This document shows, one piece after another, positions 6,049-59,704 of a stretch of 64,000 nucleotides of DNA. Origin of the DNA: Pseudoxanthomonas composti (GTDB taxonomy: Bacteria > Pseudomonadota > Gammaproteobacteria > Xanthomonadales > Xanthomonadaceae); assembly GCF_004122095.1 (NCBI RefSeq), contig NZ_SAWZ01000013.1:1-64000 (forward strand). The letters run 5' to 3'. The position numbers and the translations under genes were made by a program. The notes beneath the pieces were generated by a model, which had not been told where the DNA came from, ran no database searches, and saw only the letters and a program-made list of their open reading frames with translations. Positions within the stretch are counted from its first letter, which is position 1, and each line of letters opens with the position of its first letter.

Positions 6049-6120
6049 CTGTGGGAGCGGCTTCCGCCGCGAAGAGGCTCTACCGGGAAAGCCTCTTCGC
6101 GGCTGAAGCCGCTCCCACAG
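6049..6120. repeat. REP-like hairpin element, copy 1
   Basis: A near-perfect inverted repeat of about 30 bp per arm. The left arm begins CTGTGGGAGCGGCTTC and the right arm ends GAAGCCGCTCCCACAG, around a short centre (TCTACCGGGAA). This is the widespread GTGGGAGCGGCTTCAGCCGCG family of Xanthomonadaceae and Pseudomonas. It lies 24 bp past the CDF stop, where the hairpin could also act as a transcript 3' end. Confidence 0.88.
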
Positions 6121-34921: not shown

Positions 34922-35461
34922 ATGAGGCTCCTCGGCTCTGTGGGGTGTGCTGACCCGACGACCTTCGGTCAGGCCATGGCCGTCGATGCGCGCGCGAAGA
35001 AGGGTGTTCCCGTCCTGACGCATTCGGATGCGGCCGTCAGTGCCAATAGTGAGCTGCCTTACGTAGCGCGGAGTGATTGCGGGCGCAGCTGGCATTGCGG
35101 GCGACTTTGTTGCATGCAGAGCGCGGAAGCTAGTGGCCTCCTCGCCTGGAGATTCAAAGCCAGACCCATCAGCGAGCGGGTTTATGGCAAACGCCCCTTC
35201 GCGGCTGAAGCCGCTCCCACAAAGGGGGTGGGCATCTCGCAGGGGCGTGAAGGTTTGGAAGGCTGACTGCACCCAGACGCAGGCGGGTGTAGCGATACGC
35301 CATTTTGAAGCTCCCTCAGGTCGCAGCACCGGCGTGGCGTGTCACTGCATTTTTTGCGTGCCCGACACTTGTGTCCATGCGACGAACAAACGCGCGCCAT
35401 GCAAGCGCAATCGTGAATCCAATCACAATCGATTGACGGTGCCATTCATAGCTTCAGTGCA
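34922..35461. other. Intergenic region before the PIG-L/GT2 cassette
   Basis: 540 bp between divergent genes. It contains a half REP-like element at 35192-35220. The last 120 bp before 35462 are AT-richer (GTGAATCCAATCACAATCGA) and presumably contain the cassette promoter. A TTGACG at about 35434 lacks a properly spaced -10. No gene is supported. Confidence 0.5.
35192..35220. repeat. REP-like half element, copy 4
   Basis: Contains only the right arm of the family: CGCCCCTTCGCGGCTGAA followed by GCCGCTCCCAC. The left arm is missing or too diverged to recognise. Confidence 0.65.
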
Positions 35462-38919: not shown

Positions 38920-38986
38920 TGGGAGCGGCTTTAGCCACGAAGAGGCTTTCCGGGTAAGGCCTCTTCGCGGCTAAAGCCGCTCCCAC
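38920..38986. repeat. REP-like hairpin element, copy 5
   Basis: Intact inverted repeat: GGGAGCGGCTTTAGCCACGA on the left, a CTTTCCGGGTAAGGC centre, then GCGGCTAAAGCCGCTCCCAC on the right. The compensating TTTAGCC/GGCTAAA changes relative to copy 1 show that the stem is what is conserved. It lies 34 bp past the stop of the 39020-39328 gene; copy 1 likewise follows that gene's paralogue. Confidence 0.88.
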
Positions 38987-39019: not shown

Positions 39020-39328
39020 TCAAGCGCCCTGCTCCCCCTGTCGCCGCGCCACCTCCAGCCACGCGCGCGCCAGTGACCAGGACTGGACGCCCGAATGCAC
39101 CAGCATGGTGTCGGTGGCGATCTCCACGGCGACCCGCTGGTGTTCGCCCAGCCCCGCCAATGCGCCCTCGAGGAAGCGCTCGAACTCGCTCCACCACGCC
39201 AGATCGCCGTTGGTATCGAAGAGATGGCGATCGAGGTAGGCGCGGACCTTGTCGATGACGTCCTGGACCTGCGGGTCGCTCACACCGCGCGTGAGAACCC
39301 TGCGCTCGGCGAACTTCGGTTTCATCAT
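39020..39328 (-). CDS. Conserved hypothetical protein, paralogue of the gene at 6252-6605
   Basis: A 102-residue soluble protein (ATG 39328; an in-frame GTG two codons earlier is possible). The shared blocks with the 6252-6605 product are RGVSDPQVQDVIDKVRAYLD, AWWSEFERFLEG and VEIATDTMLVHSGVQSW. Spacing between blocks is conserved, so this is a true paralogue. No signal peptide or domain name. It lies downstream of the stressosome operon on the same strand, but the 72-bp gap does not show that it belongs to it. Confidence 0.75.
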   Translation of the reverse strand: MMKPKFAERRVLTRGVSDPQVQDVIDKVRAYLDRHLFDTNGDLAWWSEFERFLEGALAGLGEHQRVAVEIATDTMLVHSGVQSWSLARAWLEVARRQGEQGA

Positions 39329-39400
39329 TGCCACATTGCTTTGATTGCGCGGCAGGTTAGTCCATTGGCTGTTGAGGGGCCGTGCAACGCGCCGCCCCGG

Positions 39401-41359
39401 TCAGCGCGCTTCGGCAAAACTTGCCTGCGCGGTCTTCAATAGCGCGTCCACCTTGCCCAGCAGTTCGAGCATGGAGAAGGGCTTGGGCAGCAACGCGGTG
39501 CGATCATCCAGGGTGAAGGGCTGGTCGAAGGAATCGGCCGCGTAGCCGGTGATGAACAGCACTGGCATCTCCGGCTTGGCCACGCGCACCTTGTCGGCCA
39601 GTTCGCGGCCGCTGATTCTCGGCAGGCCAACGTCGGTCACCAGCAAGTCGAATGGCTCCGGACCGTCCAGCAGCGCCAGGGCGAGCTCGGCATCGGCCAC
39701 CGCACTGACCACGTAGCCAGCCGCCACCAGCATGTCCTGGGTGACCTCACGCAACAGCACGTTGTCGTCCACCAGCAGGATGCGTTGCTGGTCGCCATCG
39801 GGCAGGCTGTCGGGAAGATCCTGGCGGACCGCCTGCCTGGCCTCCTGTCCCAGCGGCAGCATCAACTCCACCTGGGTACCACGGCCGAGCTGGCTGGTGA
39901 TGCCGATGGTCCCGCCGGACTGCCTGGCAAAGCCATAGGCCATGGACAGGCCCAGGCCTGTTCCCTGCCCGGTGGGTTTGGTGGTGAAGAACGGTTCGAA
40001 CGCCTTTTCGATCACAGACTCGGACATGCCCGCGCCGGTATCGGTCACGACCAGGCGCGCGTACGCGCCATCGGCCAGCTCGCGGTCCCCATACAACTCC
40101 ACCACGCCGGAGTCGATCAGGATGTGCCCGCCCTCGGGCATGGCGTCGCGGGCGTTCAACACCAGGTTCAGCACCACGTTCTCGAACTGGTTGACGTCGG
40201 CGCGGGCGATTGCGGGCGAGATACCGGTTTTCAGCGTCAGCTCGACCTTCTCGCCGATGGTGCGGCGGAGCATCTCCTCAAGCGACAGCACGTGCTCGTG
40301 CACGTTGAAGTCCGTCGGTGCCAGCGCCTGCCTGCGCCCGAAGGCAAGCAGGCGCTGGGTCAACGCCGCCGCGCCCAGCGAGGCGCGGCGCACGATGTCG
40401 ATGAACCGCTCCATCCGGTCCAGGCGCCCGGACTTGAGCGAGGCCTCGATGATGTCGATGCCGGCCACGATGCTGGTCAGCTGGTTGTTGAAGTCGTGGG
40501 CAATGCCACCGGTGAGCTGGCCCAGCGCATCCATCTTCTGCGCCTGCACCAGCTGGCTTTCGCTCTGCCGGCGCTGGGCGATCTCCTGCTCGAGCTGGCC
40601 GGTGGCCAGGTCCAGCTTCTTCTTCTGCAGACGCTCGCGGTCGCGCTGCTCGGTGATGTCCTGCATGAACAGGATCGACTGCCCGGCCTGCGTATGCGGC
40701 GTCAGCCGCCACTCCACTTCCCGCCCGGTCGCCGTCACCAGCACGCCTGCCCAGCGACGATTGGCGCCAATCGCATCCTGCATCGCTTGCACGGCCGCGT
40801 CCTGCCCGTGCAAGAGGTACTCCGAAAGCCGCAGGTCGCGCGTGCCGGCCAACGAGAAGGCGCGGCCGAACGCGGGATTGGCTTCCACCACCCGCAGCTG
40901 CGCGTCCAGCACCGCGATCGGCGCGGCCAGGTTGCTGAAGATCTCGCGCATGCGCGATTCGCTCTTCACCAGCGCCTCTTCCGCGCTTCGGGCGCGCAGC
41001 AGCGTGCGCAGCGTGGCGATCAGCACCCCCGGATCGACCGGATGGACCAGGTAGGCATCGGCGCCGGCTTCCAGGCCGGTGACCATGTCGCCGACCTGCA
41101 TGGAGGCGGCCGAGACATGCACCACCGGAAGCCGGCGGTGCAGCGGATCATCGCGCAGCTTGCGCACCAGCTCGAAGCCGCTGTAGTCCGGCAGGTTGAC
41201 GTCCAGCACGACCACGTCGAAATCGCCGTCGTGGATCAGCGCCAGGCCCTGGGAGGCGGTTTCCGCTTCCTGCACCTGGTAGGCGTAGTGCTCTAGCACC
41301 CGGCGCACCGAATAGCGGGTCGCCGCATTGTCGTCGACCACCAGGATCCGCTCAGCCAT
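39401..41359 (-). CDS. Hybrid histidine kinase REC-PAS-HisKA-HATPase-REC, stressosome operon
   Basis: 652 residues, cytoplasmic. An N-terminal receiver (about 4-118) has VVDDNAATR, Asp in VVVLDVNLPDYSG, and HVSA with YLVHPVD, so His replaces the usual conserved Lys. A PAS domain (about 140-250) is followed by HisKA with GGIAHDFNNQL (about 285). The HATPase (about 385-500) has LVLNARDAMP, DTGAGM and GTGLGLSM. A C-terminal receiver (about 525-640) has VDDNVLL, Asp in LLVTDVGLPRISG and LLPKPF. It overlaps the upstream kinase gene by 8 bp (ATGGCTGA). Last gene of the rsb operon and a likely output stage, with no DNA-binding domain of its own. Confidence 0.92.
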   Translation of the reverse strand: MAERILVVDDNAATRYSVRRVLEHYAYQVQEAETASQGLALIHDGDFDVVVLDVNLPDYSGFELVRKLRDDPLHRRLPVVHVSAASMQVGDMVTGLEAGADAYLVHPVDPGVLIATLRTLLRARSAEEALVKSESRMREIFSNLAAPIAVLDAQLRVVEANPAFGRAFSLAGTRDLRLSEYLLHGQDAAVQAMQDAIGANRRWAGVLVTATGREVEWRLTPHTQAGQSILFMQDITEQRDRERLQKKKLDLATGQLEQEIAQRRQSESQLVQAQKMDALGQLTGGIAHDFNNQLTSIVAGIDIIEASLKSGRLDRMERFIDIVRRASLGAAALTQRLLAFGRRQALAPTDFNVHEHVLSLEEMLRRTIGEKVELTLKTGISPAIARADVNQFENVVLNLVLNARDAMPEGGHILIDSGVVELYGDRELADGAYARLVVTDTGAGMSESVIEKAFEPFFTTKPTGQGTGLGLSMAYGFARQSGGTIGITSQLGRGTQVELMLPLGQEARQAVRQDLPDSLPDGDQQRILLVDDNVLLREVTQDMLVAAGYVVSAVADAELALALLDGPEPFDLLVTDVGLPRISGRELADKVRVAKPEMPVLFITGYAADSFDQPFTLDDRTALLPKPFSMLELLGKVDALLKTAQASFAEAR

Positions 41360-42236
41360 GTGCCTGCTCCTGCGCCAGGCGCGTCGGCAGCACCACATGG
41401 AACGCCGAACCCTCGCCGGGCACGCTGTGCATGCCCACGTGCCCGCCCAGCAGGATGGCGAAACGCTTGCACAGCGACAGCCCCAGCCCGGTGCCGCGCA
41501 GGCGCTTCTGCAGCGGCGAGTCGACCTGCACGAAATCCTCGAACAGGGTGGCGTGCAGCGCTTCGGGAATGCCGATGCCGGTGTCGGTCACGGTGAAGCG
41601 GATCCACTCCCCGGCCGCGTCCTCCTGCCGCGCAGAGACCCGCACCTCGCCCGAGGTGGTGAACTTCAGGGCGTTGGAGATGTAGTTGCGCAGGATCTGC
41701 GCCAGCTTCTTGTCGTCGGTGTACAGCATGGGCAGCTGCGGCGGGTCCTCGAACACCAGGGCCACGGTGCCGCCCTCGGAGATCGGCCGGAACATGCCGC
41801 GCAGCGCGGAGATCAGGTCCATCAGGTCGAACCAGGCCGGCGAGATGGTGATCTTGCCCGCCTCGATCTTGGCCAGGTCCAGCAGGTCGTCGACCATCTC
41901 GGTCAACTCCTGGGCGGCGCTGCTGACGAAGCGCACCTGGCGGCGCTGCTCGGCGGTCAGCGGTCCGTCCATCTCGTCCTCCAGCAGGCGCGTCATGGAG
42001 CGGATCGACCCCAGCGGCGTGCGGAACTCATGGCTCATGTAGGACAGGAAGCGGCTCTTCAGGTCCGAGACCTGGCGCAGCTGCTCGGCCTGGTCGTCCA
42101 GCTCGGCATACAGCGCCAGCACGCCCTGGTTGGTCTCTTCCAGCTCGGCACGCAAGGCCAGCAGCTGCTCGCGCAGCTGGGCGTTGTCCTGCTCGGTCGT
42201 CGGTGGCGGCGGTGTCTGGGGGGAATCGGTCTTCAT
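41352..42236 (-). CDS. Soluble sensor histidine kinase, stressosome operon
   Basis: A 294-residue kinase. A coiled coil (about 17-65) leads to HisKA with the phospho-His in FLSYMSHEFRTPLGS (near residue 73). The HATPase (about 175-288) has RNYISNALKF, DTGIGIP and GTGLGLSL. There is no sensory domain beyond the coiled coil, so input must come from partners. It begins in the stop of the phosphatase gene (ATGA) and overlaps the hybrid kinase. A natural reading is that RsbT released from the stressosome, or the ATPase/phosphatase, controls this kinase. That connection is inferred. Confidence 0.9.
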   Translation of the reverse strand: MKTDSPQTPPPPTTEQDNAQLREQLLALRAELEETNQGVLALYAELDDQAEQLRQVSDLKSRFLSYMSHEFRTPLGSIRSMTRLLEDEMDGPLTAEQRRQVRFVSSAAQELTEMVDDLLDLAKIEAGKITISPAWFDLMDLISALRGMFRPISEGGTVALVFEDPPQLPMLYTDDKKLAQILRNYISNALKFTTSGEVRVSARQEDAAGEWIRFTVTDTGIGIPEALHATLFEDFVQVDSPLQKRLRGTGLGLSLCKRFAILLGGHVGMHSVPGEGSAFHVVLPTRLAQEQAHG

Positions 42237-43243
42237 GTGAACTCGGACAAACGCAGGAGCACGACCGTGGTGTCGTCCCGACCACGATCGAAATCGCGAC
42301 ACAGTACCGCAGCGATGAGCGCGGGGTGGCGCAGGGCCAGGCCCGGGTACTGCTGCAGGTCCCAGCGGCCCTGCAGGCCGTCGGAGTGCAGCACCAGCAG
42401 CGCGCTGCCGGCCTGGGGGAAGTCGAAGGTCTGCGCCTTGCGGAACTGCAGCCCCACGATGCCCGGCAGCGAGGCCAGTCCGCGACTGCCCGCAGGGGTC
42501 AACAGGCGACCTGCGATATTGCCCACCCCGCCGTAGCGCAACTGGCCGCTGGCCGTGTCCAGGCAGGCTACGGCCACCGCGCCGCCGCGGGTCCCACCCA
42601 GGGCGGCGTTCAAAGCGGTCAGCACCAGGGAAGGGTCACGCGCTTGGGTGGCGAGGAAGGCTTGGGCAGTCGCATCGGCGACCCGGGCCGCCTCGGGGCC
42701 ATGGCCCAGGCCGTCGACCAGACAGACCTGCATGTGCCCGGGGCCCGTGCGGAGCGACCAGCCATCTCCGCTGAACGTCCCGCCATCCATCGATCGACGG
42801 CGTGCCCCCACGGCCAGGTCGCTGGCGCCCTGCCTGAGCACGCGCGCCAGCACGATGGCGCCCTTGGCATCGGACCAGGATTCGAGCAGGTTGGACTGCC
42901 GCTTGACCGCACCCAGGCCGATGCCGGAGGTGCCGCCGGTGGAGTAGCCGTCCTGCAGGCAGGCCGCCAGGTCCAGGCCCGGCCCTTGGTCGAGCGCACA
43001 CAGCTCCACGCCAAGACCGCCCTGCGCATCCGGGACGGCCTGCACGTGGATCCAGCCACCGCGGCCATGCTTGACCACGTTGGTGGCCAGTTCCGTGGCC
43101 ACCAGCGCGGCGCGTCCTGCATCGTGCTCGTCCAAGCCGATCTGGGTCGCCAGCGCCTGCGCATGGCGCCGGACCTGGCCGACCTGGGTGGCCTCCTCGA
43201 CCCTGATGTCCGTGCCGATCGGCCCGGAGTGCGTCAGTTCCAT
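42233..43243 (-). CDS. Fusion of RsbT/RsbW-like ATPase and SpoIIE phosphatase (RsbX position)
   Basis: 336 residues. Residues about 10-135 form an anti-sigma-factor-type HATPase (ALVATELATNVVKHGRGG as N-box; LDQGPGLDL as G1; GGTSGIGLGAVKR as G2). Residues about 150-335 form a SpoIIE/PP2C phosphatase with VCLVDGLGHGPEA for metal binding, LVLHSDGL and RGRDDTTVVLLRL at the end. In the Bacillus stressosome RsbX is the phosphatase alone; here it is fused to the ATPase, as in proteobacterial versions. Expected role: dephosphorylate RsbR and RsbS to reset the complex. It overlaps rsbT by 10 bp. Confidence 0.9.
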   Translation of the reverse strand: MELTHSGPIGTDIRVEEATQVGQVRRHAQALATQIGLDEHDAGRAALVATELATNVVKHGRGGWIHVQAVPDAQGGLGVELCALDQGPGLDLAACLQDGYSTGGTSGIGLGAVKRQSNLLESWSDAKGAIVLARVLRQGASDLAVGARRRSMDGGTFSGDGWSLRTGPGHMQVCLVDGLGHGPEAARVADATAQAFLATQARDPSLVLTALNAALGGTRGGAVAVACLDTASGQLRYGGVGNIAGRLLTPAGSRGLASLPGIVGLQFRKAQTFDFPQAGSALLVLHSDGLQGRWDLQQYPGLALRHPALIAAVLCRDFDRGRDDTTVVLLRLSEFT

Positions 43244-43635
43244 TTGGAGATCGTGACCTCGGTACCCTTGCCCAGTTCGCTGCGGATTTCGAACCGATCG
43301 ACAAGCCGCTTGGCACCGGTCAGGCCAAGGCCCATGCCCGAGCCGGAGGTCCAGCCGTCGGTCAGCGCCAGCGCCATGTCCGGGATGCCGGGCCCTTGGT
43401 CGACGAACCGCAGCTGCACGCCCTTGCGCATGCCCTCCTGCTGCAGGCTCCAGTTCATCACCCCGCCGCCGCCATAGATGACGGTGTTGCGCGCCAGCTC
43501 GCTGACGGCGGTGACCAGCTTGGTCTGGTCCACCAGCCGCAGCCCGGCCTGTACCGCCAGGCGCCGGACCAGCTGGCGCGCCAGCACCACGTCCTGTTCG
43601 GTGCGTACGGCCGCTTCCCCGCTTTCCGGGCTCAT
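43234..43635 (-). CDS. rsbT: Stressosome switch kinase RsbT
   Basis: A 133-residue single-domain GHKL kinase. N-box VSELARNTVIYGGGG, G1 FVDQGPGIPD and G2 TSGSGMGLGLTGAKRL match RsbT closely. The family role is to phosphorylate the STAS domains of RsbR and RsbS, then leave the complex and activate a downstream partner (RsbU in Bacillus). No rsbU lies in this operon; the partner is probably one of the downstream kinases or an RsbT-binding protein elsewhere. Length is normal. The ATG overlaps the rsbS stop (ATGA). Confidence 0.93.
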   Translation of the reverse strand: MSPESGEAAVRTEQDVVLARQLVRRLAVQAGLRLVDQTKLVTAVSELARNTVIYGGGGVMNWSLQQEGMRKGVQLRFVDQGPGIPDMALALTDGWTSGSGMGLGLTGAKRLVDRFEIRSELGKGTEVTISKWN

Positions 43636-43994
43636 CGCGCGTCCACGCTGTCCTGGAGCAGCTTCATGCCGCGCTCCACGTCCAGCGCTGTACGCACCCC
43701 GGGCAGGGTCAGGCCCAGCTCGACCAGGGTGATGGCCACGGCCGGCTGCATGCCGACCAGCACCGTGGTGGCGTCCATGATGCTGGCCACGCCGGCGATC
43801 ATGCTAATCATCCTGCCGATGAAGGAATCGACCATGTCCAGCGCGGAGATGTCGATGAGCACGCCGCGGGCCGAATGCCGGCTGATCCGCTCGGACAGGT
43901 CGTCCAGCAGCGTGGCCGCCAGCTGATCGTGCATGTCCACCTGGATGGTCACCAGCAGCAGCGGTCCCATCTTGAGAATCGGGATGCGGTCCAC
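43632..43994 (-). CDS. rsbS: Stressosome scaffold STAS protein RsbS
   Basis: A 120-residue single STAS domain. The phosphorylation loop reads IDISALDMVDSFIGRMI, with Ser57 in the position of Bacillus RsbS Ser59. The rest (PILKMGPLLLVTIQVDM at the start) is also characteristic. It starts with GTG, 3 bases after the rsbR stop, and ends in an ATGA overlap with rsbT. Forms the mixed RsbR/RsbS icosahedral core in the family. Confidence 0.94.
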   Translation of the reverse strand: MDRIPILKMGPLLLVTIQVDMHDQLAATLLDDLSERISRHSARGVLIDISALDMVDSFIGRMISMIAGVASIMDATTVLVGMQPAVAITLVELGLTLPGVRTALDVERGMKLLQDSVDAR

Positions 43995-43997
43995 GGC

Positions 43998-44855
43998 TCA
44001 GTCCTTGCCGCGCACCGACAGTCCCTGGCGCTTGAGCGCCAGGGCCAGCGCGTCGGCCAGCGAGGCCTTGGTGACCACGCCCTGCAGGTCCAGGCCCAGG
44101 TGCACGATGGTTTGGGCGATCTGCGGCCTGACCCCGCTGACGATGGCGTCGGCGCCCATCAGGCGGATCGCGGTGATGGTCTTGAGCAGGTGCTGTGCCA
44201 CCAAGGTGTCCACCGTGGGCACGCCGGTGATGTCGATGATGGCGATTTCAGAGCCGGTCTCCACGATGCGCTGCAGCAGCGACTCCATCACCACCTGGGT
44301 GCGCTGGGAGTCCAGCGTGCCGATCATCGGCAGCGCCAGCACGCCGTCCCACAGCTTGACCACCGGGGTGGACAGCTCCAGCAGCTCTTCCTGCTGCCGG
44401 GCGATGATGTCCTCGCGCGATTTCTGGAACACGCGCACGGTGTACAGCCCCAGCGTGTCCAGCAGCTCGGTCACCGCCCAGGTCTGCTCACCCAGGGCCT
44501 GGGCATCGTCGGCGTACAGCCGCTGCAGCACCTGGAACAGCGGCTTTTTCAGCGAGAAGATGAAACTGGCGGTGTGCTGGGAATCGAAGCCCTGCAGCGC
44601 CCGGCTGCGCGAGAGCTCTTCCAGAAAGCGCCGGGTATCGGCCCACTGCGGCTGGCTCAGGTCGACGCGTTCGGCGCCGTCGGCGGCCATGCCCAGCAGC
44701 GCCAGGAACTCCTTGGTCTGCCGCTGCAGCTGCAGCGGCTCGATGCGCTGGTCGTGCCCGGCCCCTGAGTCCGAAAGGTTCTCCGACCAGGCGGCCAGAA
44801 TGGTTGATTCATGGTCGCTCAACGCGGAAAGGGTACGCGGGCTCAGTGCAGTCAT
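43998..44855 (-). CDS. rsbR: Stressosome sensor RsbR
   Basis: 285 residues. The N-terminal sensory half (about 1-150) is helical and globin-like in pattern (TASFIFSLKKPLFQVL), with no clear haem His. The C-terminal STAS domain (about 160-280) opens with LELSTPVVKLWDGVLALPM. The two phosphosites align with Bacillus RsbRA by position and by their 34-residue spacing: Ser183 (LDSQR) for Thr171 and Thr217 (VPTVDTLVA) for Thr205. ATG 44855 is chosen over an in-frame GTG at 44879. First gene of the six-gene operon; an AT-rich stretch at 44905-44925 probably holds the promoter. Confidence 0.93.
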   Translation of the reverse strand: MTALSPRTLSALSDHESTILAAWSENLSDSGAGHDQRIEPLQLQRQTKEFLALLGMAADGAERVDLSQPQWADTRRFLEELSRSRALQGFDSQHTASFIFSLKKPLFQVLQRLYADDAQALGEQTWAVTELLDTLGLYTVRVFQKSREDIIARQQEELLELSTPVVKLWDGVLALPMIGTLDSQRTQVVMESLLQRIVETGSEIAIIDITGVPTVDTLVAQHLLKTITAIRLMGADAIVSGVRPQIAQTIVHLGLDLQGVVTKASLADALALALKRQGLSVRGKD

Positions 44856-45938: not shown

Positions 45939-46814
45939 TCAGGCCTGGCCCGAGCCCACCCGCGCCATCAGGCCGGGCACCTGCCCGGCGATCTCGCGCG
46001 CCAGGAAGCCGAGGTCGCCCACCGTCGAACTCAACGCCCGCCCGGCTTCGGCATGCAGCCAGACCGCCCACAGGCAGGCCTGCAGCGCAGAGGCGCCACG
46101 TGCGGCCAGGCCCGCAACCAGCCCGGAGAGCACATCACCAGACCCGGAGGTCCCCAGCCCAGGCACGCCGCCCCGGTGCAGCCAGGCCTGGCCGTGCGGG
46201 TCGACGATGAAGGTGTCGGCGCCCTTGGCCACCACCACGCAGCCCAGGTGCTGGGCCAGGCGGCTGGCATGCGTCAGGGGCGCTTGCTCGACCTCCTCCC
46301 GGCTGACACCGCGCAGCTGCGCCAGCTCACCGGCATGCGGGGTCAGGACATAGGGATGGCCGGGGCGAGCGGGCGCCAGGCGCTCGTCCAACGCACCGGC
46401 ATCCAGCACGAGGACGGCGTCGGACGCGGCGAAGGCCTGGATCGACTCGACCAGGAACGCCGAGGCCTGCATGCCCGGCCCCACCAGCACGGCCTGCGCA
46501 TCGGCCACGCAGGTGCCAAGCATGGTCCCGGGGGCCATGACCTCGCCGTCTGGCCCTTCCGGCAAGGCGATGACCATCGCCTCGGGCAGCGCCACGCCGA
46601 GGGCGGCGGCCACGCTGGCCACGGTGGCGACCTGCAACTTGCCGGCACCCGCGCGCATGGCCGCCTCGCCCGCCAGCAAGGCAGCCCCCGGCACCGCAGC
46701 CGAGCCGCCCAGCACCAGCACGCGCCCGCGCGATTCCTTGTCGTCCCCGGGTGCGGGGAGCGGTTGCCCGGCCAGGAGCGCCGGGTCGAGCAGGCTGAAG
46801 GCGTCCTCGGCCAT
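45939..46814 (-). CDS. nnrD: ADP-dependent NAD(P)H-hydrate dehydratase, stand-alone
   Basis: 291-residue metabolite-repair enzyme that dehydrates NAD(P)HX using ADP (ATP in some homologues). Ribokinase-like fold: GRVLVLGGSAAVPGAALLAG near the start, VLTPHAGELAQL, VVAKGAD and the nucleotide-site GLGTSGSGDVLSGLVAG near residue 225. The epimerase half (NnrE) found fused in E. coli-type proteins is absent. ATG 46814 begins 1 bp after the upstream stop; ATG 46838 in frame would overlap that gene. Cotranscribed with the histidine phosphatase. Confidence 0.92.
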   Translation of the reverse strand: MAEDAFSLLDPALLAGQPLPAPGDDKESRGRVLVLGGSAAVPGAALLAGEAAMRAGAGKLQVATVASVAAALGVALPEAMVIALPEGPDGEVMAPGTMLGTCVADAQAVLVGPGMQASAFLVESIQAFAASDAVLVLDAGALDERLAPARPGHPYVLTPHAGELAQLRGVSREEVEQAPLTHASRLAQHLGCVVVAKGADTFIVDPHGQAWLHRGGVPGLGTSGSGDVLSGLVAGLAARGASALQACLWAVWLHAEAGRALSSTVGDLGFLAREIAGQVPGLMARVGSGQA

Positions 46815-46815
46815 C

Positions 46816-47601
46816 TCAGCGGGCGCCTGTGGGGGCATCGGGTGCGTCGGTCACCGCCTGCTCGGCCAGCTCGGGCGAGACGAAGTTGGTGCGCACCAGC
46901 TCCAGCGCCCTGCCCTGGCCGTCGGCGGCGTACTCGGTCACGCCGCAGTTGGGCACATCGCCCTTGCGGTCGATCGCCAGGATCTGCGCCTCGTCCATGC
47001 CTTCCAGCAGGTAGCGCATGCAGTTGACGATCACCTGATGGCCCACGACCAGCACGTTGGCGCCGACATGGTTGCGCTGCAGGTCGGCGATCACCCCGCG
47101 CAAGCGCAGGATCACATCGCACCAGCTTTCCCCGCCCGGCGGCCGGAAGTAGAACTTGCCCACCAGGGTGCGCTGCTCGGACAACTCCGGAAACGTCTCG
47201 CGGATGCCCGCCGAGGTGTAGCGGTCGAGGACGCCGAACTCCTTCTCGCGCAGGCGCTCATCGGCGACCAGCTGCACCTGGCCCTGAAGCGCATCGAGCA
47301 CCTGCTGGGCGGTCTGCCTGGCGCGCACGTAGGGCGAGCTGAGCACCACCTGCGGACGCAGGTGCGGCGGCTGACCGCTGAGCCAACGGCCCAGCGCCTG
47401 GGCCTGTCGCAGGCCTAGCTCGGACAGCGGCACGTCGGCGTCGCGATGCTCCAGCTCGATCAGGCTCACGCCTTCTTCTTCTGCCTTGTCGCGGGCGATG
47501 TTGCCCGCGCTCTGGCCATGCCGCACGATCCAGATCCGCGCCGGCCACTGCGTGGACACGCCCTCCATCGCCTTGTTGCGCTCCACGCCGTCGGCGCTCA
47601 T
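46816..47601 (-). CDS. Histidine phosphatase-superfamily protein
   Basis: A 261-residue phosphoglycerate-mutase-like phosphatase. The RHG motif with catalytic His is WIVRHGQSAGN near residue 27 and the second His in VVGHQVIVNC near residue 190. LSSPYVRARQTA supplies the arginine region and LREKEFGVLDRYT the acidic loop. Somewhat longer than typical SixA/PhoE members. A good Shine-Dalgarno (GGAGG, 6 bases before ATG 47601) sets the start. Substrate unknown. It directly precedes nnrD with a 1-bp gap, suggesting a shared operon. Confidence 0.9.
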   Translation of the reverse strand: MSADGVERNKAMEGVSTQWPARIWIVRHGQSAGNIARDKAEEEGVSLIELEHRDADVPLSELGLRQAQALGRWLSGQPPHLRPQVVLSSPYVRARQTAQQVLDALQGQVQLVADERLREKEFGVLDRYTSAGIRETFPELSEQRTLVGKFYFRPPGGESWCDVILRLRGVIADLQRNHVGANVLVVGHQVIVNCMRYLLEGMDEAQILAIDRKGDVPNCGVTEYAADGQGRALELVRTNFVSPELAEQAVTDAPDAPTGAR

Positions 47602-59636: not shown

Positions 59637-59704
59637 GTGGGAGCGGCTTCAGCCGCGAAGAAGCTTTCCCAGGAAGGCCCCTTCGCGGCTGAAGCCGCTC
59701 CCAC
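59637..59704. repeat. REP-like hairpin element, copy 6
   Basis: Intact inverted repeat: GTGGGAGCGGCTTCAGCCGC on the left, an AGCTTTCCCAGGAAGGCCC centre, and GCGGCTGAAGCCGCTCCCAC on the right. Perfect 20-bp outer stem. It lies one base after the 14-bp tandem array and 84 bp past the minus-strand gene stop at 59788. Confidence 0.9.

Follow-up and report, generated by a model that had tools for sequence, protein, structure and literature searches.

Gene organization of the operon

The window analysed here, a 64,000-nucleotide stretch of Pseudoxanthomonas composti DNA (positions 1 to 64,000 of contig NZ_SAWZ01000013.1; the host genome comprises 4.33 Mb in 24 contigs), carries on its minus strand an operon in which a stressosome module, rsbR-rsbS-rsbT-X, is followed by genes for a histidine kinase (HK) and a hybrid kinase (HY) (Table 1). 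We consider it fairly probable that this operon encodes a stressosome with HK as its direct output, on which free RsbT would act through a conserved N-terminal helix. The study is based on sequence and predicted structure, and the genomes were sampled from two phyla, Pseudomonadota and Actinomycetota.

The six open reading frames (ORFs) are tightly packed in one direction and contain no internal stops; rsbS starts with GTG. From rsbR to HY, the junctions are a gap of 3 bp followed by overlaps of 4, 10, 4 and 8 bp. These values agree exactly with those in the first-pass annotation, which had been made from the sequence alone, and Pfam bore out its domain assignments for all six genes.

Table 1. 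Coordinates of the operon genes and of selected HK features in the window.
Feature	Position	Strand	Basis
rsbR, stressosome sensor/scaffold	43998..44855	-	Pfam RsbRD_N and STAS; aligned to solved RsbR proteins including 7o0i
rsbS, stressosome scaffold	43632..43994	-	Pfam STAS; solved RsbS relatives
rsbT, switch kinase	43234..43635	-	Pfam HATPase_c / HATPase_c_2; intact N-box and G1 box
X, RsbW/RsbT-like ATPase and SpoIIE/PP2C phosphatase	42233..43243	-	Pfam HATPase_c_2 and SpoIIE
HK, soluble sensor-less histidine kinase	41352..42236	-	Pfam HisKA and HATPase_c; AlphaFold2 model
HK phospho-acceptor His69	codon 42030-42032	-	Invariant residue
HK residues 28-54, conserved input helix LRAELEETNQGVLALYAELDDQAEQLR, proposed RsbT contact	42075..42155	-	Column entropy; confined to stressosome loci
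HY, hybrid kinase REC-PAS-HisKA-HATPase-REC	39401..41359	-	Pfam two Response_reg, PAS, HisKA and HATPase_c

The RsbRD_N and STAS domains of RsbR scored 75.9 and 48.6 bits, respectively, and the relatives of RsbT in the PDB are SpoIIAB-type anti-sigma F factors. The HisKA domain of HY scored 21.1 bits, below the curated cut-off of 26.9, and its phospho-acceptor His is nonetheless present. Judged from its domains, X is an RsbX-like feedback phosphatase with an ATPase head of its own. The operon thus holds the recognizable parts of a stressosome module, namely an RsbR with a STAS domain and an N-terminal sensor, RsbS, RsbT and a predicted RsbX-type PP2C phosphatase, together with intact two-component residues (HisKA His, HATPase boxes and receiver Asp), except that the Lys of the first HY receiver is replaced by His106.

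Conservation of catalytic residues and gene order

Key residues were counted over distinct homologues, after sequences under set limits of identity and length and alignments with stops had been dropped. All of the following are invariant: Ser183 and Thr217 of RsbR (82/82 sequences), Ser57 of RsbS (81/81), the N-box Glu/Asn and G1 Asp of RsbT (91/91), the key ATPase and PP2C residues of X, including the PP2C Asp (80/80), His69 of HK (82/82), and, in HY, Asp53 and His106 of the first receiver and His288 of the HisKA domain (71/71). In the second receiver of HY, Asp576 is present in 70 of 71 sequences, with one gap, and the Lys in 67 of 71, with four gaps. Ser183, Thr217 and Ser57 align with known acceptor sites of solved stressosome proteins and are, by this equivalence, presumably the acceptors here; for RsbS, Ser57 also fits the Ser/Ala difference between the chains of the solved relatives. 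The His in place of the expected Lys had been noticed in the first-pass annotation. Since it occurs in every one of the 71 distinct HY sequences, it is a lineage trait and neither decay nor an oddity of one genome.

A search of named genomes with HK gave 49 loci, four of which hold unrelated kinases (25-33% identity over the best segment) without rsbRST. The other 45 are HK orthologue loci, among them loci of Xanthomonas, Stenotrophomonas, Pseudoxanthomonas, Variovorax and Stella. The six genes occur in order at 43 of them, although at one of these the contig ends within HY; the remaining two are cut at the contig start. When loci were chosen by RsbR instead, a strong match (E <= 2.5e-16) was found in 42 of the 297 family genomes; all except the window were taken, and 39 of these 41 loci have the six genes in order. 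Their two incomplete members end with the contig, after HK in one (L179) and after rsbT in the other (L193). The two sets overlap, and at two loci (L148 and L162) HY or HK is covered only in part by its best segment. The first-pass annotation had reasoned that the coupling would be accidental if rsbRSTX loci usually lacked these kinases; within this class of stressosome, they usually carry them. Because the gene order is kept at 43/45 and 39/41 loci, the pairing of stressosome and kinases is not accidental. HK is the best-conserved output protein, mostly 73-81% identical among the nearer family members versus about 52% for HY, and in the Variovorax orthologues the values are 66% for HK versus 31% for HY.

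The N-terminal helix of HK and its distribution

The first-pass annotation held that HK has only a coiled coil for input, and the AlphaFold2 model agrees: the N-terminus forms one continuous helix, residues 14-86, that runs into the HisKA domain (mean pLDDT, the model's confidence score, 78.8). The core of this helix, TNQGVLALYAELD, is on average better conserved than the catalytic domains. Among 76 distinct bare HKs, that is, those without an RsbT-like head (see below), mean column entropy was 0.20 bits over residues 33-47 versus 0.49 for HisKA and 0.76 for HATPase, and Thr35, Asn36, Gly38, Val39, Ala41, Leu42, Tyr43 and Glu45 were invariant; the helix reads TNxGVxALxxEL. The adjoining H-box is equally invariant, and the helix core is the best-conserved stretch outside it. 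By our own heptad reading, Thr35 and Asn36 would be polar core residues of the coil, directly before the His domain. Since the unvarying residues include some for which a coiled coil has no need, we infer that they point to a binding surface. The helix resembles the signalling helix (S-helix) in being a coiled coil ahead of an HK or PP2C domain, as seen in the HK model and in Pfam scans of other bearers; the ERT signature of S-helices is absent from the window, which reads EETNQG (the S-helix profile was not scored).

The occurrence of the helix follows that of a particular class of stressosome. Used as a single query against 398 Pseudomonadota genomes, the 45-residue helix of the window matched 17. 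RsbS was found in 28 of the 398, at 63% identity or more in 17 and at 48% or less in the other 11; the 17 helix genomes are exactly the 17 with the closer RsbS, and the 11 gave no helix match at the strict threshold. The hypergeometric probability of this co-occurrence, reckoned against all 28 RsbS genomes, is 7e-23, a figure inflated by relatedness, which the calculation ignores. All 16 matches outside the window lie directly after rsbRSTX. As a control, a 45-residue coil of HY was found in 12 of 200 genomes, only two of which (G000 and G404) are RsbS-positive. A profile of the helix matched 19 of the 398 genomes at E <= 0.01, 18 of them strongly; this search is partly circular, 11 of the 12 profile rows coming from rsbRSTX-linked loci, and the single-sequence search is the clean one. 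The nineteenth genome, G467 (E = 0.003), gave no RsbS match.

The helix was also found in a second phylum. A profile built from Pseudomonadota only matched 8 of 198 Actinomycetota genomes at E <= 1e-4, one of which (G688) had been reached through an HK pattern match, the other seven having been drawn. All eight helix proteins follow rsbR-S-T-X. Seven are SpoIIE phosphatases, six of them with GAF domains; the eighth is an HK, behind which a REC-SpoIIE protein is encoded. Given that it accompanies rsbRSTX on both kinases and phosphatases, the helix seems to stay with the stressosome while the effector changes. An actinobacterial HK at L223 (7402-8787) has two tandem helix copies behind a partial RsbT-like head. 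Separately, a PAS-PAS-GGDEF-EAL protein after rsbRSTX at L186 (7267-9426) begins with a weakly HK-like helix; we treat it as a lead only, as a profile built without L186 gives E = 0.1 over 17,052 ORFs, no better than a stray place in G467 (0.13).

RsbT-like domains fused to the helix

An RsbT-like domain precedes the helix at nine loci, comprising 8 of the 16 non-window Pseudomonadota loci (L105-L112) and the Stella locus (L070). By BLAST, these fused heads are 35-46% identical to the RsbT of the window, and Pfam HATPase_c_2 was recognized in each of the four that were scanned (L106, L107, L112 and L070). At L107 and L112, it is a kinase of the HY type that bears head and helix, and at L182, a more distant stressosome, an RsbT-like domain is carried by a HisKA_2 kinase. 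In a tree of 57 domains, from which the half domain of L188 was left out, the fused heads form one group (support 90/69) on the side of the stand-alone RsbT proteins, away from the X heads; support for the deep split from the X heads is weak (53/81), and the branches of L105 and L182 are long. These natural fusions of an RsbT-like domain with HK point to RsbT as the partner of HK. In the model of the fused Stella protein, the RsbT-like part has a pLDDT of about 42-69, too low for a fold to be claimed. One alignment (A2) was left unused; judged from its invariant columns, it had apparently placed RsbT rows on the ATPase domain of HK itself.

The ATP-site Asn is kept in all 25 stand-alone RsbT proteins, all 20 X heads and 8 of 11 fused heads, the exceptions being L105, L070 and L188. 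In the HK tree, the bare HKs, which make up 21 of the 28 rows, fall into a single clade (99/98). Outgroup rooting failed, the branches to the outgroup measuring 2 to 10 changes per column, and the tree was rooted on the L108-L111 clade instead; it is silent on whether a head was lost in the bare clade or gained in the fused one. The heads at L070 and L105 are decayed, which speaks for loss rather than gain, so that the HK of the window would descend from a fused form that lost the head and kept the helix. In Actinomycetota, the N-terminal halves of the SpoIIE outputs matched RsbT in HHalign with a probability of 95% (E = 3e-8, eight rows), which fell to 59% (E = 9e-5) without L223 and L224; they look somewhat like decayed RsbT domains. 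At L184 (6158-6631) and L185 (6195-6608), a second stand-alone rsbT-like gene stands before an RsbX of 194-197 aa that lacks an ATPase head, possibly an unfused precursor of the X of the window.

Surroundings of the operon

RsbS was found in 2 of 38 genomes of the genus, window included, and a flanking gene at 45939-46838 in 2 of 13, window counted. As both are rare in the genus, the region around the operon looks variable. By blastn, no gene after HY is common to the other loci, the 2 kb downstream of the operon in the window matching none of them. A 104-aa ORF that follows HY on the same strand (39020-39334) has no Pfam match and was not found beside other operons. A palindrome resembling repetitive extragenic palindromic elements, GGGAGCGGCTTTAGCCGCGA, lies at 6053-6116, 35199-35218, 38921-38984 and 59639-59702 of the window (7 matches at <=3 mismatches versus 0.01 expected); three of the sites are facing pairs, and one is just downstream of the operon.

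Proposed mechanism and alternative explanations

We propose that RsbR and RsbS form a sensory core that holds RsbT. Under stress, RsbT would phosphorylate the STAS proteins and be released, and the free RsbT would bind the N-terminal helix of the HK dimer and lock an otherwise unstable coiled coil that continues into the His-bearing helices, thereby switching HK. HK would most likely phosphorylate the first receiver of HY, the product of the adjacent gene with its 8-bp overlap, and the HY kinase and second receiver would pass the phosphate to a partner outside the operon. The reset of the core would fall to X, as the phosphatase of RsbR and RsbS. In this view, the helix is the coupling part of a portable cassette, with an RsbT-like domain fused ahead of it and other kinases or SpoIIE phosphatases behind; in relatives with the fusion, a tethered RsbT copy would sit beside the helix. 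A precedent for coil locking is known from Bacillus, in which the binding of RsbT to RsbU converts flexible linkers to a short coiled coil, dimerizing and activating the phosphatase; the authors add that histidine kinases use similar crossing helices (PMC12143880). The host genome gave no match to RsbU_N (PF08673) at E <= 0.001, and a Bacillus subtilis control was positive.

That RsbT, or its fused copy, drives the outputs through the helix is in our view the best reading of the sequence data. The first-pass annotation had suggested that the stressosome signal is passed to both kinases; for the first, a coupling to the stressosome is well supported by the gene order at 39/41 loci and by the RsbT-like fusions with HK. 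Several points weigh against the proposal or narrow it. The more distant stressosomes, found in the 11 of 28 RsbS-positive genomes whose RsbS is no more than 48% identical, gave no helix match at the strict threshold and have other or unclear outputs. Since the six genes are for the most part passed on together, co-occurrence alone is no proof of contact. Three of the 11 fused heads are without ATP-site residues, so the fused domain may serve for docking rather than as a copy of the switch. For the transfer from HK to HY, the basis is gene adjacency. Finally, in Vibrio vulnificus an interaction between RsbT and D1, of the D1-D2 two-component output, was not detected (PMC9237108).

One alternative is that RsbT transiently phosphorylates HK (or X), as proposed for Vibrio D1, and that the helix is a mere dimer-forming signalling helix. 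The complete conservation of the ATP-site residues of RsbT (91/91) suits this idea, as does the commonness of S-helices as linkers (PMC1592074). However, neither an invariant Asn, Gly, Tyr and Glu nor a confinement to stressosome loci, which the control coil of HY does not show, is to be expected of a simple linker, and the fused domains that lost the ATP site (L070, L105 and L188) cannot be kinases; we regard this explanation as unlikely. More doubtful still is a recruitment of HK to the stressosome core, through the helix or, in relatives, through a fused head docking on STAS, with activity following the occupancy of the core and not the release of RsbT. An RsbT-like domain in a fusion should recognize those STAS sites to which RsbT itself binds, and degenerate heads suit docking more than catalysis, but HK in this lineage lacks such a head, and any binding of the bare helix to STAS domains is hypothetical. 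The least probable candidate, with little to be said for its odds, is X, acting on HK through its ATPase half in place of RsbT: it always lies between rsbT and HK in complete loci and its ATPase site is intact (80/80), yet the helix-fused domains group with RsbT and not with the X heads, with the reservation on the deep split given above.

Returning to control of HK by RsbT, we see about even chances for a broader generalization, in which the TNxGVxALxxEL helix would be a dedicated output coupler of stressosomes, an alternative to RsbU_N that serves several effectors in at least two phyla, often as a cassette of RsbT paralogue and helix with a decaying or lost head. The effectors would include HisKA kinases, hybrid kinases, GAF-SpoIIE phosphatases and perhaps a GGDEF-EAL enzyme; in Xanthomonadaceae, the RsbT head would have been lost and the bare helix worked by free RsbT. 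For Gram-negative stressosomes, in which most downstream proteins lack RsbU_N (PMC9237108), the helix coupler, if true, would be the missing RsbT target where RsbU is absent. If the helix is the contact, kinases and phosphatases under stressosome control could be recognized in two phyla by one sequence motif.

Comparison with known systems

Modules of rsbRSTX followed by PP2C, cyclic diguanylate (c-di-GMP) or HisKA/REC proteins, most without RsbU_N, have been described, and XcRsbR of Xanthomonas campestris is mentioned (PMC9237108). The statement of the first-pass annotation that some proteobacterial stressosomes are followed by two-component genes is thus already in print. The operon type is of a known kind; the coupling helix looks new, and neither an RsbT-histidine kinase fusion nor this helix appeared in the titles and abstracts found in the open-access literature.

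The module of Vibrio vulnificus, RSTX with D1-D2, likewise has kinase/receiver genes close behind rsbRSTX and no SigB (PMC9237108; PMC10014275). Its RsbR has a haem globin sensor in contrast to the RsbRD_N domain found here, the output of D2 is c-di-GMP related, and its X is without the ATPase head; coupling of RsbT to a helix is not described for it in the excerpts of these two sources. The Bacillus RsbRST-RsbU-SigB pathway shares RsbR, RsbS and RsbT with equivalent acceptor residues and a feedback phosphatase. It differs in that the output gene here encodes a histidine kinase, no RsbU_N protein being found in the host genome, and in that Bacillus RsbX has no ATPase domain, whereas X is fused to one.

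S-helices are similarly parallel coiled-coil switches of about 40 residues before HK, PP2C or GGDEF domains, but they are very widespread and bear the ERT signature (PMC1592074), whereas the helix described here was tied to rsbRSTX in the samples searched. A histidine kinase as stressosome output is also known from proteobacterial operons in which the kinase carries RsbU_N (PMC9237108; PMC12143880), and L187 is such a kinase; in HK, a short helix stands in place of RsbU_N, preceded in relatives by an RsbT-like domain.

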